This document shows, piece after piece, positions 17,438 through 38,219 of a DNA stretch of 64,000 bases. The stretch's first letter is position 1. Every line of letters begins with the position of its first letter. The notes under the pieces are model-generated. The model made no database searches, was not told the DNA's origin, and saw only the letters and a program-made list of their open reading frames with translations. The DNA comes from Pseudomonadota bacterium (GTDB taxonomy: Bacteria > Campylobacterota > Campylobacteria > Campylobacterales > Sulfurospirillaceae): contig JAGDMU010000007.1 of assembly GCA_017860615.1 (NCBI GenBank), positions 132,534 to 196,533 of the forward strand. The letters are read 5' to 3'. The position numbers and the translations under genes are program-made.

Positions 17438-18397
17438 CTATAAAAGTGCATTAAACAGATATCCAACACCCATAATACCCACCGCCACGATGCCAAAAAA
17501 AGTCGCAATAAGCTTTACATGTAAGATGCGTTTCAAGATCATTGCTTCAGGCAAACTCAGCGCCGTGATCGCCATCATAAAACTAAGAGCCGTACCAAGG
17601 AGCATTCCTTTAGACGTCAAAACCTCGATTAAAGGCATGACACCTGCCGCGTTAGAGTACATCGGAACTCCAAGAATTACAGCTAAAGGCACGCTATACC
17701 ACGTATTACTTCCTGCGTATTTCACGATAAATTCGGTTGGAATGTAGCCATGAATAAATGCTCCAATGCCCACACCAATCAGCACATAAAGGTAAATTTT
17801 TTGCAAAATATCCATTGTATAATTCCACGACTCTTTGACTCTTTTTTTCATCGTGAGTTTAATCTCGACATCTTCCAAATCACCACTCATAGGAACGACT
17901 GGAATCAGTACGTATTTTTCCATACCCAGACGACCTACTACAAAACCACCAATAATGGCGACTAAAAGCCCAAATCCGATGTAAAGTGCCGTGATTTTCC
18001 AGCCAAAAAGTCCAAACAAAAGGGCAATGGCAATCTCATTATTCATAGGAGACGAGATAAGAAAACTAAAGGTAATGCCAAGCGGAATGCGCGCTTGCAT
18101 AAACCCTAAAAACAGAGGAATGGCAGAGCAACTGCAAAACGGCGTGATAATGCCAAAAAGAGCCGCTAAGATATTGCCTGTAAATTCACTTTTACCTTGC
18201 AGATAGACTCTGACTTTTTCAGTGTTAAAGTACGTTCGTAAAAAACTCACCGCAAAAATTATCAGTACCAACAACATATAGATTTTGATGGTATCATAGA
18301 TAAAAAAGTGAATGGCACCTCCTGCTTGCGATGTTTTATCCATTCCAAACAGATCCACTACCAAAGCATCAACGATTCTTTCCCACCAATCAAACAT
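17438..18397 (-). CDS. ArsP-like permease (PF03773 family)
   Basis: Membrane protein of 319 residues with about eight to ten hydrophobic segments. The family signature PFCSCSAIPLF is present, with the cysteines in a membrane segment, followed by SFLISSPMNNE and a second half GVPMYSNAAGVMPL. ArsP of Campylobacter jejuni exports trivalent organoarsenicals, and related permeases may move other metals. Its place in an arsenic operon supports metalloid export but not the exact substrate. A frame start at 18433 exists; ATG 18397 with AAAGGATAC 5 nt upstream is preferred. Confidence 0.8.
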   Translation of the reverse strand: MFDWWERIVDALVVDLFGMDKTSQAGGAIHFFIYDTIKIYMLLVLIIFAVSFLRTYFNTEKVRVYLQGKSEFTGNILAALFGIITPFCSCSAIPLFLGFMQARIPLGITFSFLISSPMNNEIAIALLFGLFGWKITALYIGFGLLVAIIGGFVVGRLGMEKYVLIPVVPMSGDLEDVEIKLTMKKRVKESWNYTMDILQKIYLYVLIGVGIGAFIHGYIPTEFIVKYAGSNTWYSVPLAVILGVPMYSNAAGVMPLIEVLTSKGMLLGTALSFMMAITALSLPEAMILKRILHVKLIATFFGIVAVGIMGVGYLFNALL

Positions 18398-18475
18398 GAC
18401 AGTATCCTTTATTGTAAAAATCAGCACTCTCAAACAACTTTGAGGCCCTATTGCTCACTAGCAGCTTAAGGGGCT

Positions 18476-19462: not shown

Positions 19463-20170
19463 CTAAAATACACGGTACGTTTGGTAGAGAAAATAAACGC
19501 CAATTCCCACTAAAACCATAACAAAAAAGCCGTTAATGACACGGCTCGCCTTGTTTATCCTGCGACTTGAAACGACACTTTGCGTAAATCCCAGTGACGT
19601 CCCAGCCACCAAGAGCAACATACCATGTCCTAGCGCAAATGCCAAAACAAGGGCATACGAATAGACCCAACCACTCTGACTTGCAATGGTAATGATGGCA
19701 ACCAAAGGAGCAGACGCGCATGGTGTGCTCACCAGTCCAAATATAAGCCCGATGATCACCGCGCCCAAAAGTTTGAACTTTAAAAACTTACGTGCAACCT
19801 TTTCTTTGTCGAAGCCTTGAATCCATCCAAGGGCATAGGCAACCACGGTAAATGTCGCAAGGGAAGCTAGCAGATACGCCCAAAATGGGGCAAGGGAGAG
19901 CATCATGCCCATCTTGGAAACCAGAAGCATCAACAATGAAAAACTGATGACCAACCCCAAAACAAACAGAAGAGAGTATTGATAAATAAAGACTTTTTTC
20001 TGCTTTGGAGTGAGATCGCCAGAAAGCCCCAAAGCACTCCCTGCAAGCAGAGGTAAGGTGATGATGGAGCACGGAGCCAAAGAGGTCAAAAGACCAATGC
20101 CAAACGAAGCCACAATCGCCCACACCCCAAACTGCGAGGTCATTTCAATGAGCATCTGCTCCACATTCAT
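19463..20170 (-). CDS. CcdA/DsbD-type membrane thiol-electron transporter
   Basis: The 235-residue protein has six membrane segments and the paired prolyl-cysteine motifs of CcdA: LAPCSIITLP in the first half and STPCASAPLVA in the second. CcdA accepts electrons from cytoplasmic thioredoxin and passes them to periplasmic thioredoxin-like proteins. The next gene encodes such a lipoprotein, so the two probably form a relay. Its ATG overlaps the arsC stop upstream by 4 nt, tying it to the arsenate reductase message. Confidence 0.85.
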   Translation of the reverse strand: MNVEQMLIEMTSQFGVWAIVASFGIGLLTSLAPCSIITLPLLAGSALGLSGDLTPKQKKVFIYQYSLLFVLGLVISFSLLMLLVSKMGMMLSLAPFWAYLLASLATFTVVAYALGWIQGFDKEKVARKFLKFKLLGAVIIGLIFGLVSTPCASAPLVAIITIASQSGWVYSYALVLAFALGHGMLLLVAGTSLGFTQSVVSSRRINKASRVINGFFVMVLVGIGVYFLYQTYRVF

Positions 20171-20565
20171 GAGAGTTTTTCTTTAATAATCGGTAAAAGT
20201 TCGGCTTCAATCGCCTTATACGTGAGAATAAATGCCCCATAATCTTTGCCATCAGGATCGGAAAATCCTACATGAATTTTAGGAATAGGTTTAGGAAACA
20301 TCGGGCAGGTTTCATGAGCATGATCGCACACCGTCACCACCAAATCAAAGTCAAGATTGATCACTTCATCCAAGGCTTTAGAGTGATACGAATCGTTCCA
20401 AATACCCTCTTCCTCTAAGACTCTTTTCGCATAAGCGTTCACTTTACCACTCGCACGTACACCCGCACTGTAAGCCTCAATGCCTTCTAATTTGGCATTG
20501 ACCAGTGCTTCGGCGATGATGCTTCGACAACTGTTTCCTGTGCATAAAATCAGTACTTTTTTCAT
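20167..20565 (-). CDS. arsC: Arsenate reductase ArsC, thioredoxin-coupled low-molecular-weight phosphatase type (copy 1)
   Basis: The 132-residue protein reduces arsenate to arsenite in the cytoplasm. The anion loop is CTGNSCRS (Cys8, Cys13, Arg14). The relay cysteines are in VCDHAHETC with the seven-residue spacing of the pI258-type enzymes (Cys10, Cys82, Cys89 there). A longer frame starts at 20607, but AAAGG lies 7 nt before ATG 20565. It heads the ccdA-trx-DUF2703-permease set and has a likely ArsR site 55 nt upstream. Confidence 0.88.
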   Translation of the reverse strand: MKKVLILCTGNSCRSIIAEALVNAKLEGIEAYSAGVRASGKVNAYAKRVLEEEGIWNDSYHSKALDEVINLDFDLVVTVCDHAHETCPMFPKPIPKIHVGFSDPDGKDYGAFILTYKAIEAELLPIIKEKLS

Positions 20566-20574
20566 AATGAAACC

Positions 20575-20586
20575 TTTACATGTAAA
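20575..20586. repeat. Iterated palindrome TTTACATGTAAA (upstream of arsC)
   Basis: A 12-bp perfect palindrome just upstream of arsC. The 10-bp core TTACATGTAA also occurs at 17515-17524, 27241-27250 and 31622-31631, three times inside coding sequence. Confidence 0.6.
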
Positions 20587-20619
20587 CCATTGAATGAATG
20601 GTAGCATAAAATTATCTTT

Positions 20620-20705: not shown

Positions 20706-21956
20706 TTAAAGTGTTAATAAAACCAAAAAAAGCACAGGTGGCGTGATGATAAGCCCAAATTTAGAGTATTGCCAAAAACTTATTTTCACCCCTTTTTTTG
20801 CCAAAACATGCAACCATAAAAGCGTTGCCAAAGAGCCAAATGGGGTCATTTTAGGTCCAAGATTACATCCGATAATATTAGCATAGGCTAAAGCGGTATT
20901 GGGGATGTCGTGCAAAGCAATGTCCATAATCATAACCGTTGGCATATTATTCATCACCGCACTCAAAATAGCAGCGATAAATCCTGTTCCTATAATAGCA
21001 ATCGTATCACCTCTGGTATTTAGATCTTTAAGAATAATAGCTAGATAGTCAGTCAATCCTGCATTTTTAAGCCCATAAACCACAATGTAAAGCCCGATGC
21101 TAAACCACACCACTTGCCATGGAGCAGAAGTAATAATACGCTTAGGATGCACCACTTTAAACGCATTGGCAATCAGTAAAAAAAGTAATGCTCCACCCAA
21201 TGCAAAGACTGAAATAGGCAAATGATACGCATCACCAATAAAATAGCTTCCTAAAAGCAATGCCAAAAAAAGCCATGCTATATAAAACAACGGTTTGCTT
21301 TTTAGCGCTTCATCGGGATGTTTCAGAAGCGATACATCCACATGAGCAACGATATCTTTGCGTAAAAAAAGCCATAAAAAAACAATCGAGATAAGCGTAC
21401 TGGCAACAAATGGCACAAACATCACACTTAAATACTGTGCAAACCCGATATGAAAATAGTTTGCAGTGACAATGTTCGTAAGATTTGAAAAGACAAACGG
21501 CAACGATGCAGAGTCACTGATAAACCCACCCGCTAACAAAAAAGCGACAATGGTTTTAGTGCCTAATTTCAAAAGACGCATTTTTGCCAGTAAAATCGGT
21601 GTCAAAATAAGCGCTGCACCATCATTGGCAAACAAAGCAGAGATGAACGCACCTAAAATAAGTGAGTTGACAAACATCACATGGCCATTACCTTTGGAAA
21701 GCTTTGTCATCCAAATCGCACACCACTCAAAAAAGCCAATCTCATCGAGCACCATAGAGAGAATAATAATGCCGATAAATGCTAAGGTTGCATCCCAAAC
21801 AATGCTTGTTACCACAAGCACATCTGCAAAGCTCACAACACCCACCACCAACGCAACTAGAGCGCCTAAAACAGCCGTCGTGCCAATTTGCAAACCACGT
21901 GGTTGCCAAATGACACACACCAACGTGGCTAAAAAAAGAAGCGCCGCTAAAATCAT
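20706..21956 (-). CDS. arsB: Arsenite efflux permease of the ArsB/ion-transporter superfamily
   Basis: The 416-residue membrane protein has about eleven to twelve hydrophobic segments. ArsB features include GIIILSMVLDEIGFFEW, then FANDGAALILTPILL, and later NNMPTVMIMDIAL and GCNLGPKMTPFGSLATLLWL. It exports arsenite or antimonite from the cytoplasm. Its ATG overlaps the arsR stop (ATGA), so the repressor and pump are translated together under ArsR control. Confidence 0.88.
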   Translation of the reverse strand: MILAALLFLATLVCVIWQPRGLQIGTTAVLGALVALVVGVVSFADVLVVTSIVWDATLAFIGIIILSMVLDEIGFFEWCAIWMTKLSKGNGHVMFVNSLILGAFISALFANDGAALILTPILLAKMRLLKLGTKTIVAFLLAGGFISDSASLPFVFSNLTNIVTANYFHIGFAQYLSVMFVPFVASTLISIVFLWLFLRKDIVAHVDVSLLKHPDEALKSKPLFYIAWLFLALLLGSYFIGDAYHLPISVFALGGALLFLLIANAFKVVHPKRIITSAPWQVVWFSIGLYIVVYGLKNAGLTDYLAIILKDLNTRGDTIAIIGTGFIAAILSAVMNNMPTVMIMDIALHDIPNTALAYANIIGCNLGPKMTPFGSLATLLWLHVLAKKGVKISFWQYSKFGLIITPPVLFLVLLTL

Positions 21957-22267
21957 GCGAGTTCTTTACATGCAGGACAATTTTGAGGTAGGTTTAACTC
22001 GAGGTAACTTATCTCCTCCAAACATGCCAAACGAAAACGATCCATCGGTGAGCGAATGGCGTAATACGCCCATTTCCCACGCCGATCGACTTTTAAAAAC
22101 CCTGCATCTTTGAGGATTTTAAGATGTCTTGAAATGCGTGATTGAATCATATTAAACGCACTTTCAATCTCACATACGCACACTTCACCATGTTGTGCGA
22201 TAAATGCTAAAATTTGAACCCGTGTTTCATCGTTGAGTGCCCCAACGGTTTTTAAAAAAACATCCAT
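21953..22267 (-). CDS. arsR: ArsR-family arsenite-responsive repressor
   Basis: The 104-residue winged-helix repressor has a recognition helix region MIQSRISRHLKILKDAGFL. Just before it lies EVCVCEIESAF, whose paired cysteines match the ELCVCDL metal-sensing motif of ArsR, so it should release DNA on binding arsenite. Two more cysteines lie in NCPACKE at the C-terminus. A frame start at 22294 exists, but AAAGGTGAC precedes ATG 22267. The palindromic site at 22334-22353 lies upstream. Confidence 0.88.
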   Translation of the reverse strand: MDVFLKTVGALNDETRVQILAFIAQHGEVCVCEIESAFNMIQSRISRHLKILKDAGFLKVDRRGKWAYYAIRSPMDRFRLACLEEISYLELNLPQNCPACKELA

Positions 22268-22333
22268 AATGTCACCTTTATGATTACGATACATTCAAAA
22301 ATATGGCAAGGAGTGTAACACAATATCTCTTTT

Positions 22334-22402: not shown

Positions 22403-22834
22403 TTAGTATTGAGGTTCAATCATCTCAATAAACGCTAGTACCGCTTCTTTAATCTCTTCTTTGACCGCTCTGGTTTGCGCTATATTCTCTTCATACGTTC
22501 CCATAAAACCACTAGGATCTTTAAAGCTCCAACGAATACGACTCGTTTGACCAGGAAAAATAGGACATCGTTGGCTATTGCCTTCATCACATACCGTAAT
22601 GACATAATGAAATAAATTTCCCTCTTTAAACAAATCAAACACCGATTGTGTTTTCTTCCCTGTTATATCAATACCCTCTTCTTTGAGAACTTCAACAGCC
22701 AAAGGGTTTAAAATACCAGGCTCCAAACCTGCACTTTGAACACTAAATATCTCTCCACCGTATTTTTTGAGCAATGCTTCTGCCATTTGACTTCGTGCAC
22801 TGTTGTGAATACATACAAATAAAACTTTTACCAT
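22403..22834 (-). CDS. arsC: Arsenate reductase ArsC, low-molecular-weight phosphatase type (copy 2)
   Basis: The 143-residue protein belongs to the same superfamily as the copy at 20565 but is clearly different in sequence. The anion loop is CIHNSARS (Cys8 and Arg14). A second cysteine pair lies in VCDEGNSQRCP, eight residues apart rather than seven. A tyrosine phosphatase role is less likely here because of the arsR, arsB and aio neighbours. It is divergent from aioBA across 316 bases and 135 nt upstream of arsR. Confidence 0.85.
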   Translation of the reverse strand: MVKVLFVCIHNSARSQMAEALLKKYGGEIFSVQSAGLEPGILNPLAVEVLKEEGIDITGKKTQSVFDLFKEGNLFHYVITVCDEGNSQRCPIFPGQTSRIRWSFKDPSGFMGTYEENIAQTRAVKEEIKEAVLAFIEMIEPQY

Positions 22835-23150
22835 AAATACTCCTTCTTCAAAGTTTTTCTAAATACATTTGTAACAGACAGATAACTTTATAGAAGATGA
22901 TTTACAAAATGGTTACAATCTTATTATTGTGTAAAAATGTAACTCAAATATTACATCGCAAATATGACGAAAAAAAGATATCTTAAAATATACAACGCTG
23001 TATACGAATTATGATACTTGTTTACTCTATTGAGAAGCTTCTCAATAATTTTTTTATAACAAATATTTATACTTTAACTTTTGCTTTTTAGATTTTTTTT
23101 AGAGAAAACGCTATAGCCTAAATAGGACAACACACTATAAGGAGAAACAT
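22835..23150. promoter_or_regulatory. Divergent control region between arsC copy 2 and aioBA
   Basis: This 316-base AT-rich gap has no gene. It holds TGTAAC-AGACA-GATAAC (22870-22886, half-sites 11 bp apart), a further GGTTACAAT (22911) and TGTAAC (22938). It also has the inverted repeat TATACA-ACGC-TGTATA (22989-23004) and a 20-bp palindrome before a T-run (23028-23056). I see no GG-N10-GC sigma-54 promoter on the aio strand. AAGGAGAAACAT precedes aioB. Confidence 0.45.
23028..23056 (+). terminator. Perfect palindrome plus T-run in the aioBA leader
   Basis: TATTGAGAAGCTTCTCAATA (23028-23047) is a perfect 20-bp palindrome followed by ATTTTTTTT. It looks like an intrinsic terminator or attenuator 95 nt before the aioB start. 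An operator is the other possibility. Confidence 0.45.
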
Positions 23151-23636
23151 ATGGTGAACGTAGAAGAGAAACATACCAGACGAGAATTTTTAAAATTCTC
23201 AGCTTTAGGACTTGGTACAATAGCGGCTACTCCAGCACTCATTGCAGGTGATGCACCGCCTTCAATGTCTGTGTATGGAAGTTACACAAAAAACAGAGTT
23301 GGCTCATTAGCACAACTCAAAAAAGCAGGTGAAATCGATTTTTCTTATCCTGATGGCAATGCTTTGTGTAAAGCTGTGTATGTAAATAATGAAGTCAAAG
23401 CGTACAGCATTATCTGCACCCATAAAGGCTGCCCAACCATTTACAACAAAGAAAAAGCGCTGTTTGAGTGTCCCTGTCACTTCACAAAATATGACGCAAA
23501 AAAAGATGGACAAATGGTCATCGGTCATGCGACAGGAGCGCTTCCACGTGTTCTTTTAGAAATTAGTGGCGATGACATTTTTGCTATTGGTGTCGATGGG
23601 CTCATCTTTGGTCGCATCAACAATAACGTAGGTTAA
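23151..23636 (+). CDS. aioB: Arsenite oxidase small subunit, Rieske [2Fe-2S] protein
   Basis: The 161-residue subunit starts with a twin-arginine signal (TRREFLKFSALGLG, about residues 9-22), so the folded enzyme is exported by Tat. The Rieske ligands are Cys89, His91, Cys107 and His110, in ICTHKGC and CPCH. Cys94 and Cys109 can form the disulfide seen in the Alcaligenes enzyme, and all spacings match that protein. It passes electrons from the molybdenum subunit to a periplasmic acceptor. aioA begins 10 nt after its stop with its own AAGGAG. Confidence 0.93.
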   Translation: MVNVEEKHTRREFLKFSALGLGTIAATPALIAGDAPPSMSVYGSYTKNRVGSLAQLKKAGEIDFSYPDGNALCKAVYVNNEVKAYSIICTHKGCPTIYNKEKALFECPCHFTKYDAKKDGQMVIGHATGALPRVLLEISGDDIFAIGVDGLIFGRINNNVG

Positions 23637-23646
23637 GGAGAAAAAC

Positions 23647-26118
23647 ATGGCACTAACTTTAAACGATAGACTACCCATTCCTCATAAAAATGCTGAAGTT
23701 AAAAATGTTACCTGTGAGTTTTGTATTGTCGGTTGTGGCTACAAAGCTTACAAATGGCCTCTTGGCACAGAGGGAACCTATAAAAATAATGCGCTAGGCC
23801 TTGATCTTTCACAGCAACAGCCTACTTATGGCGACTGGTGTAGTGAACGGATGTTTAACACGATACAAGATCGAGATGGCAAAAAATACAATCTTATGGT
23901 TATTCCTGATAAAGAGTGTATGGTCAACATTGGTCAAAACTCTGTTCGTGGTGGTATGATGGGTGTTTCAACCTTCAATGCGGCAAGCCCGACCAAAGAT
24001 AGACTCAAAGAGCCTCAAATCTTTAGAGGTGGTATGCTCATGGAAACATCATGGGAAGAAGCAACAACCATCATCGCAAAAGTGTACAAAAAAATCATTG
24101 ATAACGATGGTGCTGATGAAATTTCACATAAAACCTTTGACCACGGCGGTGGTGGCGGCGGCTTTGAAAACACATGGGGAACAGGCAAACTTTTTCACAC
24201 GGCTATTGGCACCGCATCGGCTTCGATTCACAATCGCCCTGCGTATAACTCTGAAGTGCATTCAAGCCGTGAAATGGGCGTTGGTGAACTTAACAGCAGT
24301 TATTATGACACCAGTATCTCCGATACGATGCTTGTCATTGGGTGCAATCCTTATGAGTGTCAAACCAATCTTTTTAACATTCATATGCAAGCCAATCTTG
24401 ATGGCAGTAGCATAGAAAATAAAAAGAAAGAGTATGACAAAGGTGAAAGTGTCAGCAAAGGAAAGATCATTTTTGTTGACCCAAGACGCACAGCATCCAT
24501 TACCAATGCCATAGCGATTGCAGATAAAGAGAATGTCCTTCATCTCCAAATCAAACCTGGTCAAGATATTACGCTTATGAATGCCCTTGTAAGCTACATT
24601 ATAGAGCAAGGGTGGGAAGCTAAAGAGTTCATCAAAAACCATACAGAAAACTTTGATGCGATGTATAAAGTCAATAAAATCTCCTTAGAATATGCCTCTT
24701 CTATCACAAACATTAGTGTCGCTGACATCAAAAAAGCAGCCGAATGGATCGCAAAACCAAAGCCAAGCGGACATCGTCCTCGCAATGCGATTTACTATGA
24801 AAAAGGCATCATTTGGGGAATTAAAAACTACGAAAATGTCGCTTCCATCGTCAATCTTGGACTTGTAACGCACAGCGTGGGTCGTGTGGGAACAGGAATA
24901 TGTCGCGCAGGCGGTCACCAAGAAGGCTATACGAGACCTGAGTATACTGGACCAAGTAGGCAAAATCTTGCCGTCATTGATACCGACATTATCCAAGGTA
25001 AATACCTTGTCTATTCGATCTGGGGAACCAACCCTTTTGGTCAGTCTATCGCGACACAACGCCTCAGAAATGCGGTAAATAAGCGCAGTCAAATCGTCAA
25101 AGATGCGATCAATGGTTATCATGGAAACAACCTTGATGAACTCTGCGATATTATCTACAACGCGTGTAAATCAGGCGGTCTTTTTGTTGTCGATATCGAC
25201 ATCTACCCAACGCAATCGAGCGAGCGAGCGCACATTGTATTGCCAGCTGCAACAACCATGGAGATGAACCTCACGTCTATGAGTGGAGAGCGTAGAATGC
25301 GTCTGTCTGAAAAAGTGATGGATGCGCCTGGTAGTGCCAAACCAGACTGTCTCATTGCCGCCGATATTGCCAATGCGCTTAAAGCAGAGTACCTCAAATC
25401 TGGCAATAAAACCATGGCAAAACGTTTTGAGGGCTTTGAGTGGAAGAGCGAAGAGGACGCCTTTATGGATGGCTTTGCGGGACAAGGTTCTAAAATGGCA
25501 AGCCAAGGTGGACCAACAGGAACCCTTGCGAACTATAAACTGCTGCGTGATGCAGGCAATAACGGCGTTCAACTTCCTATTGTCAAAGTGGACAATGGCA
25601 AGCTTATCGGTACACGCCTTAACTACGCCGATGGTAAGTTTGGCACCAAATCGGGTCGTGCGACGTTCTTACCAACCCCTCAACCTGCTATGCCAAAACA
25701 GGTTGCAAAACAAGTGAAACGCTACAAATATTGGGTCAATACAGGGCGCATCAATGAAGTATGGCAGTCAAACTACCACACAGGTCGTCTTGAATTTACC
25801 GCCAAACGATGGCCGATGGCTCCGCTTGAAATTCACCCCAATGATGCTAAAGAGCTGGGCGTTACGAGTGGTGATATTGTTCAACTCAGTAACGATTATG
25901 GCTCCACACGAGCGATCGCTATTGTAACGGATGCGGTGCGTAAAGGCGAAGTTTTTGGTGCTTTTGGTTTCCAAAATTCCATCATCAACGACCTCTGCAC
26001 CGATTATGTCGATCCTGATACCAAAATTCCTTTCTACAAAGGAACTGCGGCCAATATCGTTAAAGTAGGACGAAGTGAAGGGCTTATCAAAGATATGACG
26101 TTTGCAGAACGCGCTTAA
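23647..26118 (+). CDS. aioA: Arsenite oxidase large subunit, molybdopterin [3Fe-4S] protein
   Basis: The 823-residue DMSO-reductase-family subunit should oxidise arsenite to arsenate in the periplasm. The cluster motif is CEFCIVGC (Cys23, Cys26, Cys30). The fourth position is Ser99 in QNSVRGG, as in Aio enzymes with a [3Fe-4S] centre. Family arsenite-site residues are present: His195 and Glu203 in HNRPAYNSE, and Arg420 and His424 in CRAGGH (419 and 423 in Alcaligenes). No signal peptide is present; it should be carried out with AioB. It is distinct from arrA in the same window. A terminator follows. Confidence 0.95.
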   Translation: MALTLNDRLPIPHKNAEVKNVTCEFCIVGCGYKAYKWPLGTEGTYKNNALGLDLSQQQPTYGDWCSERMFNTIQDRDGKKYNLMVIPDKECMVNIGQNSVRGGMMGVSTFNAASPTKDRLKEPQIFRGGMLMETSWEEATTIIAKVYKKIIDNDGADEISHKTFDHGGGGGGFENTWGTGKLFHTAIGTASASIHNRPAYNSEVHSSREMGVGELNSSYYDTSISDTMLVIGCNPYECQTNLFNIHMQANLDGSSIENKKKEYDKGESVSKGKIIFVDPRRTASITNAIAIADKENVLHLQIKPGQDITLMNALVSYIIEQGWEAKEFIKNHTENFDAMYKVNKISLEYASSITNISVADIKKAAEWIAKPKPSGHRPRNAIYYEKGIIWGIKNYENVASIVNLGLVTHSVGRVGTGICRAGGHQEGYTRPEYTGPSRQNLAVIDTDIIQGKYLVYSIWGTNPFGQSIATQRLRNAVNKRSQIVKDAINGYHGNNLDELCDIIYNACKSGGLFVVDIDIYPTQSSERAHIVLPAATTMEMNLTSMSGERRMRLSEKVMDAPGSAKPDCLIAADIANALKAEYLKSGNKTMAKRFEGFEWKSEEDAFMDGFAGQGSKMASQGGPTGTLANYKLLRDAGNNGVQLPIVKVDNGKLIGTRLNYADGKFGTKSGRATFLPTPQPAMPKQVAKQVKRYKYWVNTGRINEVWQSNYHTGRLEFTAKRWPMAPLEIHPNDAKELGVTSGDIVQLSNDYGSTRAIAIVTDAVRKGEVFGAFGFQNSIINDLCTDYVDPDTKIPFYKGTAANIVKVGRSEGLIKDMTFAERA

Positions 26119-27866: not shown

Positions 27867-27875
27867 GGTGTTCTC

Positions 27876-29797: not shown

Positions 29798-29816
29798 ATG
29801 TTAATGCGATGTTAAT
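29798..29816 (-). promoter_or_regulatory. Possible response-regulator box upstream of the ABC operon
   Basis: On the minus strand ATTAACATCGC is followed by ATTAACAT, two ATTAAC half-sites 11 bp apart, overlapping the arrR stop and 44 nt from the ATPase start. It resembles the repeat at 9368-9384. Confidence 0.25.
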
Positions 29817-31194
29817 CACTATCATCTTGGTAAAGATTAAACGTTTTCAACTGTTTTTTAAGTGTATTGCGTGAAATATCGAGTAGGGTGGAAAGCTGTG
29901 TGATATTTGGGCAGAGCGAAAAGCTTACCTGTAAAAAGGTTTTTTGCATCATTTGCTCTAATTCATGCGCTTTTTCAACACCTTCTTTCTCTAAAAAATC
30001 ACGACAAAATTGCTCTAAATTTTGCTTCTCACACGGCAATGCGTCTTCAAACTCTTTGATGTCATCCGCTTTGATCATAGCATCATTGGCATTTAAACAA
30101 GCACTGTAAATTATATTGCGGAGCTCTCTAATATTGCCTCTCCAATGATGCCGTGCAAGTTTAACCAACGCCTCTTCGGAAATGGATGTAATGGTCGTTT
30201 TAAGATCACGGTTAGCTTTAGCGATGAAATGCTCGCACAAAATAGGAATATCTTGAATACGCTCTTGAAGCGTTGGCATCGTGATGGTGAGCATGGAGAG
30301 GCGAAAATAAAGGTCTTCACGAAAACTCTTTTGTTGGCTTTGTTCTTTGAGATTGGCGTTGGTCGCACTGATGATGCGCCCTTCAAACGTGATCTCTTTA
30401 GCACCTCCCACACGCCTAAACTTTTTCGTCTCTAAAAAACGCAATAGTTTGCTTTGAAGCTCGATGTCAAGTTCCCCTATCTCATCCAAAAAGAGCGTGC
30501 CCTCCCCTGTTTGCTCGGCGTACCCGATGTGCTGTTTATCGGCACTGGTGAACGAGCCTTTCTCATGCCCGAAAAGCTGACTCTCAAAAAGATCTTTAGG
30601 AATGGAAGCGCAATTCACGGCGATAAAAGGGTGCTCACTTCGTTCTGAATTGGTATGAATGAGACTGGCTATCAGCTCTTTGCCTGTGCCTGTTTCGCCG
30701 TAAATGAGCACGGAGAGGTCATTGTTCGCTGCGATACCGATCTTTTTATAGATCTCTTTCATCGTCTCGTACGAACCTACAAACGCCTCTTCTCCTTGTT
30801 TTATAGGCTTTTTAGCACTCTTCTCTTTGCTGGAAGTGTCTGCATATTTCCCCACCAACTCTAAAAGTTGCACCTCATCAAAAGGCTTTTGCAAAATATC
30901 TTTAATGCCAATTTTAGACGCTTCAATCATATTAGTCGGTGTCGTATACGCTGTCATCAAGATAATGGGAAGGTTGAGTCCTGCTTTTTTAAACTGCTTA
31001 ATCAAATCAATGCCCGTAAGATTTTCGCTGAGCATCACATCGACGATTAAAAGCTCAACACCTTGCTCTTCAATCATTAAAGAGAGTTCAAACTCTTCGC
31101 CGTTAAACTGCAACGGTGTGTGTTGATTGCGCTGTAAAATTTTAGCAACCGAATAGCGAATCTCTTGTTGGTCATCAATAATGGCGATTTTCAT
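29812..31194 (-). CDS. arrR: Sigma-54-dependent response regulator (ArrR/AioR type)
   Basis: The 460-residue NtrC-family activator has a receiver with phosphoacceptor Asp52 (LLIVDVM) and Lys103 (LQKPF). The AAA+ domain has Walker A GETGTGKE (166-173) and Walker B LFLDEIGEL, and a Fis-type helix-turn-helix closes the protein (LLDISRNTLKKQL). The sigma-54-contacting GAFTGA loop reads GSFTSA (213-218), an uncommon form. A frame start at 31224 exists, but ATG 31194 overlaps the kinase stop and has AGGA upstream. It should activate the -24/-12 promoter before arrC. Confidence 0.88.
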   Translation of the reverse strand: MKIAIIDDQQEIRYSVAKILQRNQHTPLQFNGEEFELSLMIEEQGVELLIVDVMLSENLTGIDLIKQFKKAGLNLPIILMTAYTTPTNMIEASKIGIKDILQKPFDEVQLLELVGKYADTSSKEKSAKKPIKQGEEAFVGSYETMKEIYKKIGIAANNDLSVLIYGETGTGKELIASLIHTNSERSEHPFIAVNCASIPKDLFESQLFGHEKGSFTSADKQHIGYAEQTGEGTLFLDEIGELDIELQSKLLRFLETKKFRRVGGAKEITFEGRIISATNANLKEQSQQKSFREDLYFRLSMLTITMPTLQERIQDIPILCEHFIAKANRDLKTTITSISEEALVKLARHHWRGNIRELRNIIYSACLNANDAMIKADDIKEFEDALPCEKQNLEQFCRDFLEKEGVEKAHELEQMMQKTFLQVSFSLCPNITQLSTLLDISRNTLKKQLKTFNLYQDDSD

Positions 31195-32558
31195 GCTGCT
31201 TCCTGACATGGGATATACAGACAAAACGTTGTCTGCTCGTTTTCGCTTTCAAACTCGATGTAGCCGTTGGAGAGATAGACAATTTTATAGATACTAAAAA
31301 GCCCCAAACCTGAACCCTCTTTTTTAGTGGTAAAAAAGGGTTTAAACAGATTGGCTTTGGTTTTTTCATCCATTGTTTCGCCACTGTTTTTCACACACAA
31401 GATGGAAAATCCTGCTTGCTCGGCCCTCTTCCATGTGATCTCAATCGTACTGAGTTGAAACGCTGCATCAATGGCGTTATTCAGTAAATTGATTAAAATA
31501 ATTTCAATGGCATTCGCCCCCATTTTAACGCTCAAATCCTCTTCCACGATGCTCTGAATCGTTAAATGTTTTTTATTCAAAAAAGAGCGCAATAGGGCAA
31601 TAGATTCTTCAACAAATGGCTTTACATGTAAAGGTTTTTCGTACTTAAAATCAGCGGGTTTGGCAAGAGCCAAAAAGTCCACAACCTGATGATCGATGCG
31701 CGCTAATGCTCCATGAATGATGGGCATATCTTCTTTATCGGGCAGTTGGGCAGGGGAAAGCAACAACTTTAAAGGTTGCAATAAATTTTTCACCTCATGC
31801 GCAAAAGAGGAGCTTATTTCTCCCAAAATAATAAGTGAGTGTGAAATGCGAGCGTTCTTCTCCTCTTTTTCGATAGAGTCTCGCAGCTCATGCATTAATT
31901 GCGTTGTTTTTTCGATGATGCGGGTAATCTCATCGTTCTCTTTGCCTTGATAAATCGTAATGTCATCCCATCGTTTCTCGATGATTGCGGTTGCATTATT
32001 TGCGAGCAAATGAAGCCTTCCAAGCAGTCTTCCCATAAAAATATTGGCAATAATGAGTGAGAGTAACGCCACTAAAAGAAGCAGAACAAACTGCGCTAAA
32101 AAGGTGTCTTCCAACATACTCAAAAGTGTTTGGTTTTTCACTTTAAGCACAAAAGAGCCAAAGGTTACCCCATCTTGTTCAAAAGGGACAACATTGTAGG
32201 TGTCAAATTCTTTAAAGATGTCACCAATACGATAGTTATCCGTGTCAGTATGTGCCACAATAACATTATGAGTGTCAATAAATCCCGAGCTTTCAATCAT
32301 ACTACTGGAACTCAGCGTTTTGAGAAATTTGTAAAGCTCCCATTGGTTGTGGGTAAGGATAAAATCGCTGACAAATGCTTTGTTGGAATTAATGTTGGTC
32401 TTAATCAGCTCATCAATGATCTGATTGGTATGGTTTTTATGAATGTCTATGTTGATAATAATCGAAACAGAAGAGATCGCAAAAACAACCCAAAAAATAA
32501 GTGTGGCAAGTTTGACTTGAACAGAGAGTGCTAAAAGATAGTCAATGAGTTTTTTCAT
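31191..32558 (-). CDS. arrS: Sensor histidine kinase (ArrS/AioS type)
   Basis: The 455-residue kinase has membrane helices near 17-36 and 153-173, bounding a periplasmic sensor of about 115 residues, then a HAMP-like linker. The phosphorylated His is His254 in SFAHEVKNLLQPL. The ATPase domain has NLLNNAIDAA and GSGLGLFSIYKI. It overlaps both neighbours by 4 nt (arrX upstream, arrR downstream), so the three are made as a unit. Ligand-bound ArrX probably acts on its periplasmic domain, as AioX does on AioS. Confidence 0.88.
   Translation of the reverse strand: MKKLIDYLLALSVQVKLATLIFWVVFAISSVSIIINIDIHKNHTNQIIDELIKTNINSNKAFVSDFILTHNQWELYKFLKTLSSSSMIESSGFIDTHNVIVAHTDTDNYRIGDIFKEFDTYNVVPFEQDGVTFGSFVLKVKNQTLLSMLEDTFLAQFVLLLLVALLSLIIANIFMGRLLGRLHLLANNATAIIEKRWDDITIYQGKENDEITRIIEKTTQLMHELRDSIEKEEKNARISHSLIILGEISSSFAHEVKNLLQPLKLLLSPAQLPDKEDMPIIHGALARIDHQVVDFLALAKPADFKYEKPLHVKPFVEESIALLRSFLNKKHLTIQSIVEEDLSVKMGANAIEIILINLLNNAIDAAFQLSTIEITWKRAEQAGFSILCVKNSGETMDEKTKANLFKPFFTTKKEGSGLGLFSIYKIVYLSNGYIEFESENEQTTFCLYIPCQEAA
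31620..31633. repeat. Iterated palindrome CTTTACATGTAAAG inside arrS
   Basis: A 14-bp perfect palindrome, read as Leu-His-Val-Lys in the arrS frame. It is the longest of four copies sharing the core TTACATGTAA in the window. Confidence 0.6.
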
Positions 32559-33427
32559 TGTCTCTGTTCAATGGCTTCAAGCATTTTGGCTACATTGGAA
32601 AAATCTTGGCCAGAGGGAAGGTCAAAGCGATCCAAGGAGAGTTTTTCCAAGATACTTTTACCATAAGAGTCTAAGTGCATCGTTGCAAAGGCATGTTGTA
32701 ACATATCAAACTGCTTTTGAGGCAATGAACTTCTCGCTACAATAGGGGAATTGGTATAAGGGCCTAAAACTTGAATAATTTTAAGTTGCTCGATTTGTTC
32801 TGGATGCTTCTGCGCAAAACGCGTATAGACAATATTATCCACACTTGCACCATCCACAAAACCATCAATCACCGCTTTAATAGACTCACCATGCTCATAG
32901 GTGTAAATATAGGATTTGAAAAACGTTTTAGGATCCATTCCATGACTAAGCATATAATAGCTAGGTGCTGTTGCTCCTGAATTGCTTTCAGGATCGGTAA
33001 AGGCAAAAATAGCTCCTTTAAAATCTGACAATGAGTTGAAACGACTATTTTTTTTCGCGATAATATAGGAGTAATACTGATCACTCCCATCAAAAATAGG
33101 AATCGCTAAAATTTTTCCCGTTCCCTCTTTGTCCAATTTAGTATAACTTGAGTTACACACATACGCTATATCTACTTTATGCTCTTTAATGAGCGTATTC
33201 ATCTCTGCATAAGTTTTTGAGAAGCGTATTTGCACATCAAAATCAGTGATTTTATGCTCTAAATACTTCTCCCAATCCATAAAATTTTTGAGATCATCTT
33301 TAAAAACAGTGCCTGTAAGACCAAGGACAATTTTTTCTTTGGCATAAAGTGAAAAAGGTAACAAGAGTAGCAAAAAAAGCATGGTAAATTTTTGAAAGGC
33401 ACTGGTCAAAATTTGATCGTTTTTCAT
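32555..33427 (-). CDS. arrX: Periplasmic arsenic-oxyanion-binding protein (ArrX/AioX, PhnD-like family)
   Basis: The 290-residue protein has a signal peptide (ending FSLYA, about 1-29) followed by a PhnD-type solute-binding fold (VDIAYVCNSSY, TDPESNSGATAPSYYML). AioX binds arsenite through a cysteine, and ArrX homologues bind arsenate. The mature protein here has one cysteine, Cys91 in AYVCNSS, in the region where AioX carries its ligand. The choice of arsenite or arsenate is therefore open. A frame start at 33487 would run into the sigma-54 promoter; ATG 33427 with AAGGAG upstream is preferred. Confidence 0.82.
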   Translation of the reverse strand: MKNDQILTSAFQKFTMLFLLLLLPFSLYAKEKIVLGLTGTVFKDDLKNFMDWEKYLEHKITDFDVQIRFSKTYAEMNTLIKEHKVDIAYVCNSSYTKLDKEGTGKILAIPIFDGSDQYYSYIIAKKNSRFNSLSDFKGAIFAFTDPESNSGATAPSYYMLSHGMDPKTFFKSYIYTYEHGESIKAVIDGFVDGASVDNIVYTRFAQKHPEQIEQLKIIQVLGPYTNSPIVARSSLPQKQFDMLQHAFATMHLDSYGKSILEKLSLDRFDLPSGQDFSNVAKMLEAIEQRQ

Positions 33428-33480
33428 CTTTTGAAGGCTCCTTTTTTCTCTTGAAATCCATATTTTAGGGCTTTTGAACG

Positions 33481-33497
33481 TTGGCATGATAATTGCA
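33481..33497 (+). promoter_or_regulatory. Sigma-54 (-24/-12) promoter for arrCAB
   Basis: TTGGCATGATAATTGCA matches the RpoN consensus, with GG and GC elements exactly 10 bases apart. It lies about 50 nt before arrC and directly beside the gene set for a sigma-54 activator. Transcription should begin near 33507. Confidence 0.8.
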
Positions 33498-33513: not shown

Positions 33514-33549
33514 TGAAGAAAAGTTCAAAAAACTTTAAAGGAGTCCATG

Positions 33550-34386
33550 ATGCAATTATTGTGGGATGTACGGGTCTCGCTCGATCTGTTTTTGGGTGGT
33601 TTAGGTGTAGGTGCCTTTCTCGTGGGGGTTATACTTTACTATGTCGATGTAAAAAATTACGAGGGTTTTGTCAAAAAATCATTTGTGATTGCACCGCTTT
33701 TGGTGATAGCAGGATTGCTACTGCTGCTTACAGAACTTGGTCGTCCATTGAACGTGATTAAAACGATTTATGCGGTTAATCCAACATCGTTTATGTCAAT
33801 CGGTATTTTTTTACAAAGTGCATTTGTAGCCGTTGCGCTTCTTATTGCCTTTAAAGCTCTTACAAGCGGTGTTTCATCTCTTAGCTCAAAAATCATTTAT
33901 GCAGGTGCAATCCTTGCTGGTTTGGTTGGATTGTATCATGGATTCTTGCTCTCCGGCATTGCAAAAGAGCCATGGAATAACGCCATTCCTGTGATTTTCT
34001 TCATCTCATCCATTCTCGCAGGATCGTCTTTAATGATTCTTCTCAATTTAGATAGTTTGGAAAATCTTGTGGCACGTTTTAAACTCCCCCTCATCATCAA
34101 TATGATTTTAACCCTTGAGTTAGCGGCTGTTTTTGCATGGGTTTACAATTTAGCATTAACAACAGCATCTTCTAAACATGCCTATGATGTGCTTATTAGT
34201 AGCTTTAGCATGGAGTTTTGGGTACTGAGTATCTTAATCGGGCTCATTGCACCTTTAGTCATTTTTACATTGGTCATTTTAAATAAATTATCCCTCAAAG
34301 CAGTCGCCATTCCAACCTTTTCAATTATTGTTGCGGGAAGTTTTTTCCTCAAAAACTTAGTTGTTTATCTTGGTCAAGCAGTATAA
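33550..34386 (+). CDS. arrC: Arsenate reductase membrane subunit, NrfD/PsrC-type quinol dehydrogenase
   Basis: The 278-residue protein has about eight membrane helices in the NrfD/PsrC pattern (LFLGGLGVGAFLVG, LLLTELGRPLNVI, YHGFLLS). It should oxidise menaquinol and pass electrons to the iron-sulfur subunit ArrB. It is first in the arrCAB operon, as in several anaerobes, whereas Shewanella ArrAB lacks such an anchor. Two adjacent ATG codons exist at 33547 and 33550; the second has AAAGGAG at the better distance. Confidence 0.87.
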   Translation: MQLLWDVRVSLDLFLGGLGVGAFLVGVILYYVDVKNYEGFVKKSFVIAPLLVIAGLLLLLTELGRPLNVIKTIYAVNPTSFMSIGIFLQSAFVAVALLIAFKALTSGVSSLSSKIIYAGAILAGLVGLYHGFLLSGIAKEPWNNAIPVIFFISSILAGSSLMILLNLDSLENLVARFKLPLIINMILTLELAAVFAWVYNLALTTASSKHAYDVLISSFSMEFWVLSILIGLIAPLVIFTLVILNKLSLKAVAIPTFSIIVAGSFFLKNLVVYLGQAV

Positions 34387-34396
34387 GGAGTCAATG

Positions 34397-36952
34397 ATGA
34401 GTATTAACAGAAGAGATTTTCTCAAAACAACCGCAGGAACAGCAGCCGTCGCTTCAACCCTCTCTATTTTTCCTGAAGTTGTTGAAGCCAAAACAGGTGA
34501 ATTAAAGTATGAAGGTGAAGCAGGTAAATGGGTTTCAACAACCTGTCAAGGATGTACAAGTTGGTGTCCAATCCAAGGCTTAGTTGTTGATGGTAAAGTC
34601 ATCAAAGTCAGAGGCAATCCAAACTCTCCAAGTGGCGGACGTATCTGCCCACGTCCACACTTAGCATTGCAACAAGTGTACGATCCAGATCGTGTTAAAA
34701 CACCACTCAAACGTACCAATCCTAAAAAAGGAAGAGGGATAGATCCTAAATTTGTACCTATTTCATGGGATGAAGCGATCAATACCATCGCCGATAAAAT
34801 TATGGAACTCATCAAAGCAGGTGAAACCCATAAATACATGTTGATGAGAGGTCGTTATACCAATCTTAATGAAATTATGTACAACACCTTTCCAAAATTG
34901 ATTGGAAGCCCAAACAATATCTCGCACTCTGCCTTGTGTGCTGAGAGTGAAAAATTTGGTCGTTACTATACAGAAGGTTTTTGGAACTACGCAGATTTTG
35001 ATTTAGACAATACACGTTACATTTTAGGATGGGGTGCTGATTGGGTGGCATCAAATCGTCAAACACCATGGTTTATGCACCAATTTGGAAAAGTGAAAGA
35101 CAGAGCTAAAATCACTACGATTGATCCACGCCTTTCAGCAACCGCAGCAAAATCACATCGTTGGTTACCCGTTATCCCAGGGGAAGATGGAGCACTTGCT
35201 ATTGCTATTGCCCATGTGATTTTAAGTGAAGGCAAATGGAATAAAAGCTTTGTGGGTGATTTTGCCGATAAAGTCAATTATTTCATCCCAGAAAAAGAGG
35301 TTCCAACTGAAATTGAGCTTGATGGCAAAGTCATTCCTGTTGTCTTTGAAGAAAAACATACGCATGGTGTGATTGCATGGTGGAATTTAGAGTTAAAAGA
35401 CAGAACACCTGAGTGGGCAGAGAAACTCACAGGCATTAGCGCTAAAGAGATTCGTGAAGTGGCTCGTGAATTTGCGGAAGCTGGCAGTCGGGCTATCTCT
35501 TGGGTAACGCCAGGTACGGCAATGCAACCTCGTGGCGCGTATGCTTCCTTAGCCGCACACGCACTGAATGGTTTGGTAGGATCAGTTGATGCAGTAGGTG
35601 GAATATTACAAGGAAATTCTGTCCCCTCTGTAGCGGCACCTGATGTTAAGCCTTATCTTTCTGAAGAGATTGCCAAAGCCCTTAAAAATAAAAAGATTGA
35701 CCAAAGAGGTACCAAAGGTTTTCCTGCCATTAACCAAAAAAGTGGTGGTGGCGTTGTAACCAGTCGTGTTGCACAAGCCATGATGGATAAAAATCCATAT
35801 GACATCAAAGTAGCCATTGGATACTGGAACAACTGGGTGTTTTCAACAAATGGTGCCAATGTTTGGGAAAAAGCGATGGAGACATTGCCATTTTTTGCGC
35901 ATGTTACGACGAACATTGCGGAGATGACGATGTATGCGGATATCGTTTTGCCTGCTAAAATGCATCTCTTTGAGCGTTTTGGTTTTGTAACGAATAAGCA
36001 AAACTTACACGGCTATATGTCCATTCATCAACCACTTGTTAAACCGTATGGTGATGCAAAAACCGATGAGACGGAAGTACCGTTTTTACTTGCACAAGCA
36101 CTTGCTAAAAAAGGTTACGATGCACCACTTCGCTATTTCCAAGATAACTTCAAAGATCCACAAAGTGGCAAAATACCGGAAACTTCTGAGGAATTTGATC
36201 TTTTTGCTGTCAAATATTTTACGAAAGCTATTTGGAGTGGAGAGAGTAATGAAAAAGGTGACACCATCAATAGTTGGGAAGAGCTCTTAGATAAAGGTGT
36301 CTGGAAAACGAAGAAATTCAAACCTGGCAAAAAGATCGACAACTTTAAAACCGAAACGAAAAAATTTGAGTTTTACAGTGAAACACTCAAAAAAGTGATG
36401 ATCGAACACGCTGAAAAAAATAAAATCACCGTTGATGAAGCATTTGAACATGCTAATTATACCTGTAAAGGTGAGGTGAGTTTTGTTCCTCACTATGAGC
36501 CAGCTGTAAGGCACGGCGATGAAGCGACCTATCCGTTTATCTTCTCAGAACATCGTTCACGCCTTAACCGTGAAGGACGCAGCCAAAATAGCCCTTGGTA
36601 TTACACCACAAAAAATGTTGATCCAGGTGATGAGAACGAAAAAGATGTTACCAAAATCAATCCACTGGATGGTAAGAAACTGGGACTCAAAAATGGTGAC
36701 AAAATCCGTATTAGCTCTATCCAAGGCAGTCTTGAGAGTGAAGTCAAACTATGGGAAGGTACACGCCCTGGCGTTGTTATCAAATGCTATGGTCAAGGAC
36801 ACTGGGCATATGGTCGCGTTGGTAGTGAAGTTTTTGGCTCGAAACCAAGAGGTGGAAACAATAACCAAATACTCATTCATGAATACGAGCGCCTTAGTGG
36901 AACGAACCCAAGAGCGGGTGGTTTTGCTCGTGTAAAAATCGAAAAGATATAG
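34397..36952 (+). CDS. arrA: Respiratory arsenate reductase catalytic subunit
   Basis: The 851-residue molybdopterin enzyme reduces arsenate as terminal electron acceptor in the periplasm. A Tat signal (NRRDFLK, residues 4-10) and the [4Fe-4S] motif Cys50, Cys53, Cys57, Cys84 (CQGCTSWC, RIC) open the chain. The ArrA-specific RGRY motif is Arg153-Tyr154. Cys181 is the likely molybdenum ligand, and Lys186 and Tyr198 complete the set. These match Shewanella ArrA Arg165, Tyr166, Cys193, Lys198 and Tyr210 (from memory) with a constant shift of 12. Polysulfide and thiosulfate reductases lack this pattern. The start at 34397 has AAGGAG; a frame start at 34361 is inside arrC. Confidence 0.93.
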   Translation: MSINRRDFLKTTAGTAAVASTLSIFPEVVEAKTGELKYEGEAGKWVSTTCQGCTSWCPIQGLVVDGKVIKVRGNPNSPSGGRICPRPHLALQQVYDPDRVKTPLKRTNPKKGRGIDPKFVPISWDEAINTIADKIMELIKAGETHKYMLMRGRYTNLNEIMYNTFPKLIGSPNNISHSALCAESEKFGRYYTEGFWNYADFDLDNTRYILGWGADWVASNRQTPWFMHQFGKVKDRAKITTIDPRLSATAAKSHRWLPVIPGEDGALAIAIAHVILSEGKWNKSFVGDFADKVNYFIPEKEVPTEIELDGKVIPVVFEEKHTHGVIAWWNLELKDRTPEWAEKLTGISAKEIREVAREFAEAGSRAISWVTPGTAMQPRGAYASLAAHALNGLVGSVDAVGGILQGNSVPSVAAPDVKPYLSEEIAKALKNKKIDQRGTKGFPAINQKSGGGVVTSRVAQAMMDKNPYDIKVAIGYWNNWVFSTNGANVWEKAMETLPFFAHVTTNIAEMTMYADIVLPAKMHLFERFGFVTNKQNLHGYMSIHQPLVKPYGDAKTDETEVPFLLAQALAKKGYDAPLRYFQDNFKDPQSGKIPETSEEFDLFAVKYFTKAIWSGESNEKGDTINSWEELLDKGVWKTKKFKPGKKIDNFKTETKKFEFYSETLKKVMIEHAEKNKITVDEAFEHANYTCKGEVSFVPHYEPAVRHGDEATYPFIFSEHRSRLNREGRSQNSPWYYTTKNVDPGDENEKDVTKINPLDGKKLGLKNGDKIRISSIQGSLESEVKLWEGTRPGVVIKCYGQGHWAYGRVGSEVFGSKPRGGNNNQILIHEYERLSGTNPRAGGFARVKIEKI

Positions 36953-36966
36953 GTGAAGGATAAACA

Positions 36967-37665
36967 ATGGCAAAAAAATATGGAATGATTATTGACCTCC
37001 ATCGTTGTGTAGGATGCGGTGCATGTGATCTTGCATGTAAAAGTGAAAATAATACACCTGTTGGAATCGATTGGGCGAGCCATAAGATCGAAACATATGG
37101 GGTATTTCCCAAAGTGACCTATACCCATACACCAACGCTGTGTAACCACTGTGAAGATGCACCCTGTGTGAGAGTCTGCCCAACCCATGCAATGCATAAA
37201 ACAGAGGAAGGATTTGTCGTACACGATCCGAGTATTTGTATTGGTTGTAAAAGCTGTATGTTGGCGGATCCTTATGGTGTTATCTTTTTCAATAAAACAG
37301 ATGCCTTTAGCGATTATGTATCCGACGATAGTAGTATTGTCAAAGGTGGAACATTCTCGAAAAAAGAGCTTAGTGACAAAGCAAAAGCACCCTTTCCAAA
37401 CTTTAATGCGGCACGAGGTGCTGGTGGCTATGAGGCTATACGTCGCAAAGGTACGGTTGAGAAATGTACCTTCTGTAACCACAGAGTCGCACAAGGACTT
37501 TCCCCTGCTTGTGTTGTGGCATGTCCAGCTGACGCACGTATATTTGGTGATCTCAATGATGAGAAAAGTCAAATTGCAACAACGCTTAAAGCACATAAGC
37601 CAACGGTATTGCTTCCTGAAAAAGGCACAAATCCTAAAGTGTTTTATATCAGAAGCTACAATTAA
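36967..37665 (+). CDS. arrB: Arsenate reductase iron-sulfur subunit, four-cluster ferredoxin type
   Basis: The 232-residue subunit carries electrons from ArrC to ArrA. Cluster motifs read CVGCGACDLACKSEN, CNHCEDAPCVRVCP, CIGCKSCMLADPYG and CTFCNHR with CVVACP. In the third motif the fourth cysteine, normally before Pro, is Asp (LADPYG). That cluster may thus be [3Fe-4S] or have an oxygen ligand. No signal is present; export should occur with ArrA. A strong terminator follows directly, closing the operon. Confidence 0.9.
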   Translation: MAKKYGMIIDLHRCVGCGACDLACKSENNTPVGIDWASHKIETYGVFPKVTYTHTPTLCNHCEDAPCVRVCPTHAMHKTEEGFVVHDPSICIGCKSCMLADPYGVIFFNKTDAFSDYVSDDSSIVKGGTFSKKELSDKAKAPFPNFNAARGAGGYEAIRRKGTVEKCTFCNHRVAQGLSPACVVACPADARIFGDLNDEKSQIATTLKAHKPTVLLPEKGTNPKVFYIRSYN

Positions 37666-37781: not shown

Positions 37782-38219
37782 ATGAAAAAACTGCTTTTAA
37801 CCAGCTTTTTGTTAGGCTTTTTTATGACGCTATTTGCAGAATCACTTCCGCCCGTGACTGTTTATAAGTCTAAATATTGCGGTTGTTGTGGTGAATGGGT
37901 GAAACATATGGAAAAAAATGGCTTTAAAGTGACTGTGGTTGAGACCGAAGCACTCAATGAAGTGAAAATCAAACACAATGTCCCTGCTCCACTCGCTTCA
38001 TGTCATACTGCTATTATTGGTAATTTTATCGTCGAAGGTCACACGCCTGCAAGTAGCATTAAGCGTTTTCTTAATGAGGCACCTAAAGATGCCATCGGCT
38101 TAGCCGTTCCCGGTATGCCACTTGGTTCTCCTGGAATGGAGCAAGGCAATATGAAACAACCTTATGATGTTTTAGCCTTTGACAAACAAGGAAATACCGT
38201 TGTTTTTGAAAAATTTTAG
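37782..38219 (+). CDS. DUF411-family exported metal-binding protein
   Basis: The 145-residue protein has a signal peptide (cleavage near LFAES, residue 21) and a DUF411 core: TVYKSKYCGCCGEWVKHM, HNVPAPLASCHTA and GLAVPGMPLGSPGME. Members often lie by copper or other metal-handling genes and are thought to bind metal through the CGCC motif. Its position after the arr operon is suggestive only, since a terminator separates them. The cytochrome gene that follows overlaps its end. Confidence 0.82.
   Translation: MKKLLLTSFLLGFFMTLFAESLPPVTVYKSKYCGCCGEWVKHMEKNGFKVTVVETEALNEVKIKHNVPAPLASCHTAIIGNFIVEGHTPASSIKRFLNEAPKDAIGLAVPGMPLGSPGMEQGNMKQPYDVLAFDKQGNTVVFEKF

Follow-up and report, generated by a model that had tools for sequence, protein, structure and literature searches.

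The locus described here raises the question of whether a member of the Campylobacterota carries a working arsenite oxidase and, if so, what receives its electrons and which system controls it. It lies in a stretch of 64,000 nucleotides (hereafter the window; contig JAGDMU010000007.1 of assembly GCA_017860615.1, positions 132,534 to 196,533), where two adjacent genes, aioB and aioA, specify predicted products of 161 and 823 aa corresponding to the Rieske and molybdenum subunits of the arsenite oxidase AioAB. The genome (2.79 Mb in 31 contigs, 99.97% complete) is called Sulfurospirillum-type because the closest named match to its AioA belongs to Sulfurospirillum sp. SCADC (94%). Goris et al. 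reportedly noted aioAB in Sulfurospirillum in 2014. Passages of a 2022 comparative study (PMC8865925) record these genes in the genus, citing Goris et al. 2014, and aioAB is hence already in print for Sulfurospirillum.

Both products passed the cut-offs of their family models (AioB, 108.7 bits against 95.65 for TIGR02694; AioA, 990.2 bits against 359.05 for TIGR02693), and residues 5-822 of AioA aligned with solved arsenite oxidases (8rtl, 862 bits; 1g8k, 858 bits). Structure 1g8k is that of the Alcaligenes faecalis enzyme. A first-pass annotation of the window had listed His195, Glu203, Arg420, His424 and Ser99 in AioA; the structural alignment and a table of active-site positions recovered all of these (window numbering) together with Cys23, Cys26 and Cys30, Ser99 taking the fourth place of the 3Fe-4S site beside the three cysteines. 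Among 29 AioA rows compared, all eight positions are kept in the 25 that cover them fully, and the four rows cut by contig ends (L016, L018, L019 and L022) are concordant over the positions covered. The AioB motif CTHKGC...CPCH supplies two Cys and two His ligands plus an extra cysteine pair, so that the claim of a full Rieske set with an additional disulfide stands. The near-exact Alcaligenes spacing asserted at the same time holds closely for AioA and not for AioB, from which ten residues of the Alcaligenes-type subunit are missing. AioB bears a twin-arginine motif (TRREFL), and the AioA translation opens straight into the enzyme domain. Judged by these alignments, aioBA encodes a genuine arsenite oxidase of the known family, in keeping with the annotated view of a complete-site enzyme in a Campylobacterota-type genome, here one of Sulfurospirillum type.

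A phylogeny, which the first-pass annotation had named as a check, placed AioA inside the Aio family and away from the window's own ArrA. The tree comprised 32 proteins, with ArrA included and ArxA, an Arr-like protein according to passages of PMC5908839, absent; long branches meet in it, and neither a root nor an exact sister group is claimed. In it, window AioA and the AioA of six other Sulfurospirillum genomes form one group (support 99/98), these join AioA from two metagenome-assembled genomes (MAGs; 100/100), and ten further Campylobacterota MAG sequences join next (88/99), the whole standing apart from alpha- and betaproteobacterial, Thermus and Acidiphilium AioA. The shortening of AioB follows the same divide: the ten residues ahead of the Rieske motif are missing in 15/15 readable Campylobacterota AioB and present in 10/10 outgroup sequences, counts that leave out the loci L016, L018, L019 and L022, where aioB is unreadable.

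Within the Campylobacterota, the AioA cut-off was passed by 8 of 397 sampled genomes, seven of them from the genus and one (G237) from elsewhere in the phylum. The seven are drawn from 24 genus genomes, and aioB occurs in the same seven. A contig of 266 kb surrounds the genes, and six further genomes of the genus have them too, so that contamination or a chance open reading frame is rejected. The aioA reading frame is open in six of the seven; in the seventh, G379 (L052/L053), the sequence continues colinear beyond a stop codon, as in a recently broken copy. One of the MAGs (L010) carries an 85% identical AioA, its aioBA standing alone, with no ars, arr or XSR neighbours.

Selection on aioA was assessed through the ratio of nonsynonymous to synonymous substitution rates (dN/dS) between the window and its relatives. 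This ratio was 0.037-0.047 in 6/6 pairs, at dS of 0.53-0.78, and lay below that of gltX in each matching pair (0.049-0.102, dS 0.62-1.02); arrA, in the five pairs available from the same genomes, gave 0.075-0.124. Strong purifying selection thus acts on aioA in the seven species compared, the pattern of a gene retained for the protein that it encodes. We do not favour a recent spread of aioA within the genus by transfer; some exchange is possible, aioA dS being somewhat below that of gltX. In two genomes, G247 and G234, aioB is identical while aioA differs, which suggests local recombination.

The window also contains genes for a periplasmic arsenic-oxyanion sensor, a histidine kinase and a sigma-54-dependent response regulator (X, S and R; together XSR), beside an arrCAB operon, a setting on which the first-pass annotation is silent. 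The order arrC-arrA-arrB, with an NrfD/PsrC-type anchor and divergent from X, is the CAB order described for Arr (passages of PMC2500031). ArrA scored 943 bits against the solved ArrA 6cz7 and 1072 bits against NF041714, below the cut-off of 1600 of this still best-scoring model; because both ArrA and ArrB fall below their NCBIfam cut-offs, arrCAB is graded as a probable respiratory arsenate reductase. Where a genus genome has both systems, aioA and arrA lie 4.6-22.8 kb apart (6/6, computed from positions), the separation in the window being 8 kb. Against the Protein Data Bank, X matched ArrX (139.9 bits) ahead of AioX (108 bits), and alignment with NT-26 AioX showed Cys106 and the other binding-pocket residues, as listed in passages of PMC5908839, to be kept. 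A shorter, more polar 53-61 loop would be expected of ArrX than of AioX; the Sulfurospirillum loop is as long as that of AioX, with partly different residues, while overall similarity and the tree bring X nearer to ArrX.

Co-occurrence assigns this sensor to arr. Of the 24 genus genomes, 11 have arrA, and exactly these have X, which tracks arrA in 11/11 and aioA in 6/7; G109 has aioA with neither arrA nor X. A strict sigma-54 pattern precedes arrC in five of the six genomes with both systems and precedes aioB in 0/7, the window's one match there falling inside arsC on the other strand. The element upstream of arrC is the only exact match in the window; allowing one mismatch gives three matches against 1.33 expected, so that the weight of the element rests on its conserved place. 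Co-occurrence with arrA and the promoter pattern lead us to reject XSR as the AioXSR of the window's aio genes; by this promoter logic, XSR would drive the adjacent arrCAB and not aio.

A different arrangement is seen in marine and vent Campylobacterota, where an X gene is divergent from aioB in six MAG loci, R also being visible in four. Their X proteins group with Sulfurospirillum X (94/95) and form with it and solved ArrX a joint set apart from alpha- and betaproteobacterial AioX (99/98). No full-length ArrA relative was found in the seven vent-type genomes among nine genomes searched; G412 (Kmv14), which has a Sulfurospirillum-type AioA, does have one. In passages of PMC5908839, XSR phylogeny is said to follow the host rather than the enzyme, and aioXSR is known only from Alpha- and Betaproteobacteria. 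The simplest reading is that the sensor lineage changed its partner enzyme, which seems to be aio in the marine lineages and arr in Sulfurospirillum. No statement on such a sensor swap, or on the AioB deletion, was met in the open-access literature passages, subscription papers lying outside this search.

As the first-pass annotation had observed, no dedicated cytochrome c gene follows aioA; a one-haem cytochrome gene lies 12 kb away. No haem protein gene directly follows aioA in the seven Sulfurospirillum loci or in 12 MAG loci. Of 35 plasmid-borne aio loci found, eight were opened, and since only three of these have a cytochrome c directly after aioA, the missing dedicated cytochrome is nothing unusual. 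The window genome also encodes four one-haem cytochromes of 96-106 aa above Pfam cut-offs, two di-haem proteins that we read as resembling cytochrome c1 of the bc1 complex, a di-haem cytochrome-c-peroxidase-like protein (L077), and the cbb3 oxidase genes ccoO and ccoP. The one-haem gene within the window follows a DUF411 gene near arrB and is absent after arrB in the other loci of the genus.

The reading that we consider probable is that AioAB works as an arsenite oxidase and passes its electrons, at low oxygen, to a general c-type cytochrome and a cbb3 oxidase. What the analysis shows is the identity of the genes, the full residue sets, selection, gene order, the linkage of sensor and arr and the presence of cytochrome and cbb3 genes; export, activity in the cell, electron route, promoter logic and ecology we infer from these. 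The twin-arginine signal of AioB would carry folded AioA along into the periplasm, and arsenite would be oxidised at the molybdenum site of AioA. Two electrons would then pass from the AioA 3Fe-4S cluster to the AioB Rieske cluster and on to a general one-haem c-type cytochrome, which, provided that a little oxygen is available, would hand them to the cbb3 oxidase. The aioBA genes would be expressed from their own promoter inside the ars detoxification island, XSR driving the neighbouring arsenate-respiration operon instead, and the cell would rely on arsenate as its acceptor under anoxia and clear arsenite once oxygen is back. The wider picture, in which the sensor was swapped, aio came to stand on a separate promoter and individual Sulfurospirillum cells alternate between arsenate reduction and arsenite oxidation, both encoded in one island, using a loop-less AioB and a general cytochrome, is offered tentatively, as a possibility about which we are more doubtful than confident.

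Several observations weigh against a working enzyme of this kind. Aio is lacking from 17 of the 24 genus genomes, and in aioA of G379 a TAG stop takes the place of Trp136 of the window protein. None of the Campylobacterota loci examined links an electron-transfer partner to aio, and the electron route is therefore a guess; the AioB deletion could in addition alter partner docking. Neither the body of ccoN nor a full-length COX1 match was found in the window assembly. We read this lack as an assembly gap, contig C15 apparently breaking within ccoN: ccoO starts some 80 bases from the contig end (L114), and the end of the preceding open frame resembles the last codons of ccoN. All six other aio-carrying genomes of the genus have strong COX1 matches (at least 359 bits). 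Finally, passages of PMC8865925 report no arsenite oxidation in Sulfurospirillum pure cultures, under oxygen conditions left unstated there, and consider that the genes may not function.

The negative cultures, the stop codon in G379, the restriction of aio to 7/24 genomes, the absence of a linked cytochrome and the clear decay of the neighbouring ABC/LolA-like operon would also suit an enzyme that is competent in principle, yet in Sulfurospirillum is not expressed or lacks an electron partner, and thus a relic being lost. This is unlikely, as an unused gene would not keep a dN/dS below that of gltX in 6/6 pairs at dS above 0.5, and the frame remains open in 6/7 genomes and the upstream blocks conserved in 7/7. 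The data instead make it likely that AioAB functions in the cell. Whether it does so with an acceptor other than oxygen, by anaerobic oxidation through nitrate or nitrous oxide reductase or cytochrome c peroxidase, turns partly on energetics: the arsenate/arsenite couple, at about +60 mV, is too positive to reduce menaquinone. Although the genus respires nitrate, some strains have nosZ (passages of PMC4794192) and the window genome encodes the peroxidase-like protein, nitrate reduction in the genus is described as quinol-linked via NapGH (passages of PMC8865925), and we regard such a route as quite improbable. A main role in the periplasm on another reduced metalloid (antimonite or thioarsenite), in place of arsenite respiration, could be imagined for a genus whose life style is rich in sulfur and metalloids (PMC8865925). 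The catalytic residues are all those of arsenite oxidases, the aio genes sit among ars genes and no positive evidence for a different substrate was found, making this role very unlikely indeed. A functional arsenite oxidase with oxygen as final acceptor remains the account that we prefer.

Table 1. Positions within the window of the aio, arr and XSR genes and of neighbouring features, with the evidence for each
Feature	Position	Strand	Evidence
ArsP_1-family permease	17438..18433	-	PF03773 above cut-off
DsbD/ArsG-like membrane protein	19463..20170	-	NCBIfam matches below cut-off
Second arsC-like protein (LMWP fold)	20167..20607	-	PF01451 above cut-off; NCBIfam arsC matches below cut-off
arsB, arsenite efflux pump	20706..21956	-	NF011980 and TIGR00935 above cut-off
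arsR-family repressor	21953..22294	-	NF033788 above cut-off
arsC-like arsenate reductase (thioredoxin type)	22403..22834	-	Best NCBIfam TIGR02691, 107 bits, below cut-off 174
aioB upstream region: conserved TGTGTAAAAATG block and conserved AT-rich block near start; sigma-54 site absent	22835..23150	+	Alignment of 7 upstream regions, pattern scan
aioB, Rieske subunit of arsenite oxidase, twin-arginine signal	23151..23636	+	TIGR02694, Rieske and Tat motifs
aioA, molybdenum subunit of arsenite oxidase	23647..26118	+	TIGR02693, PDB alignment, active-site table, tree
R, sigma-54-dependent response regulator	29812..31224	-	PF00158, PF00072
S, sensor histidine kinase	31191..32558	-	HATPase_c PF02518
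X, periplasmic arsenic-oxyanion sensor, ArrX/AioX subfamily	32555..33487	-	PDB matches, pocket residues, tree; true start probably near 33421
Sigma-54 promoter-like element TTGGCATGATAATTGC, upstream of arrC	33481..33496	+	Strict pattern, 5/6 aio+arr genomes here
arrC, NrfD/PsrC-type membrane anchor	33547..34386	+	PF03916
arrA, probable respiratory arsenate reductase catalytic subunit	34361..36952	+	Best NCBIfam NF041714; ATG at 34394 used in searches
arrB, iron-sulfur subunit	36967..37665	+	Best NCBIfam NF041715, 301.5 bits, below cut-off 450
Small one-haem c-type cytochrome	38179..38505	+	PF13442 weak, 23 bits, below cut-off 27; one CXXCH

The aioBA genes sit in an ars island (Table 1), and the two blocks upstream of aioB are kept in all seven genus genomes by alignment. 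The sequence TGTAAC-N6-RTTACA is present 5' of aioB in the window and is not claimed as a regulator site, as it is not kept in all relatives and 18 of 100 shuffled sequences matched at least as often when up to one mismatch was tolerated. In G271 only (L044:9596-10703), the interval from arsR to arsC, immediately upstream of aio, encodes a small haem protein with one CXXCH along with a Crp-type regulator. On the 3' side of aioA, the opposite strand encodes a beta-barrel protein with no family match, a LolA-like protein and an ABC transporter, followed by R, S and X. Compared with G247, the region 27366-29071 has lost 43 and 110 bases, leaving the ABC permease gene split and the LolA-like gene shortened; in G234 about 7.5 kb of other genes break up this permease gene. 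By its gene structure, this operon is decaying independently in two genomes. In G271 and G264, aioA and R-S-X are adjacent and convergent. Elsewhere in the window genome (contig C7:47285-47971, L002), the frame of a 955 aa molybdoenzyme relative is open apart from one in-frame TGA, also seen in many of its relatives, and the product is probably a formate dehydrogenase of the selenocysteine type.

Arsenate-respiring Sulfurospirillum are often studied for their mobilisation of arsenic; if the enzyme works, they could also re-oxidise arsenite once oxygen appears, and predictions of their effect in groundwater would change. The negative culture test becomes directly re-testable under micro-oxic conditions, and the putative sensor swap would allow the recognition of arsenate and of arsenite to be compared cleanly between close homologues.

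Set beside known systems, the window enzyme shares with Alcaligenes faecalis AioAB (1g8k, 1g8j) and with the structures 8rtl, 8rtm, 8cff, 8cgs and 8ch9 the common domains, the molybdenum site, the 3Fe-4S site with Ser99 and the Rieske site with its cysteine pair, and differs from the Alcaligenes type in the ten residues absent before the Rieske motif of AioB. The Rhizobium NT-26 system (NT26_p1, L085) belongs to the same enzyme family and likewise has XSR nearby. There, however, aioXSR lies directly upstream and a cytochrome c gene directly follows aioA, whereas in the window XSR goes with arr and no cytochrome adjoins aioA; NT-26 AioB reads CPHKGF...CPGH and lacks the cysteine pair that the window protein retains. 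The nearest outgroups by identity are betaproteobacterial (Hydrogenophaga, L082, and an uncultured member, L020), with about 51% AioA identity and their own XSR beside aioBA, L020 also having a sigma-54 site upstream of aioB.

In the marine and vent Campylobacterota (L011-L019, L023), AioA is 63-66% identical to that of the window and falls in the same clade (88/99). These loci too have no cytochrome after aioA and show the same AioB deletion in 7/7 cases with a readable aioB; six of them (L012-L015, L017 and L023) differ in having their own X adjoining aioB. The aioAB genes recorded for Sulfurospirillum in passages of PMC8865925 are from the same genus and are the same genes, those passages not treating sensor linkage, the AioB deletion or selection.

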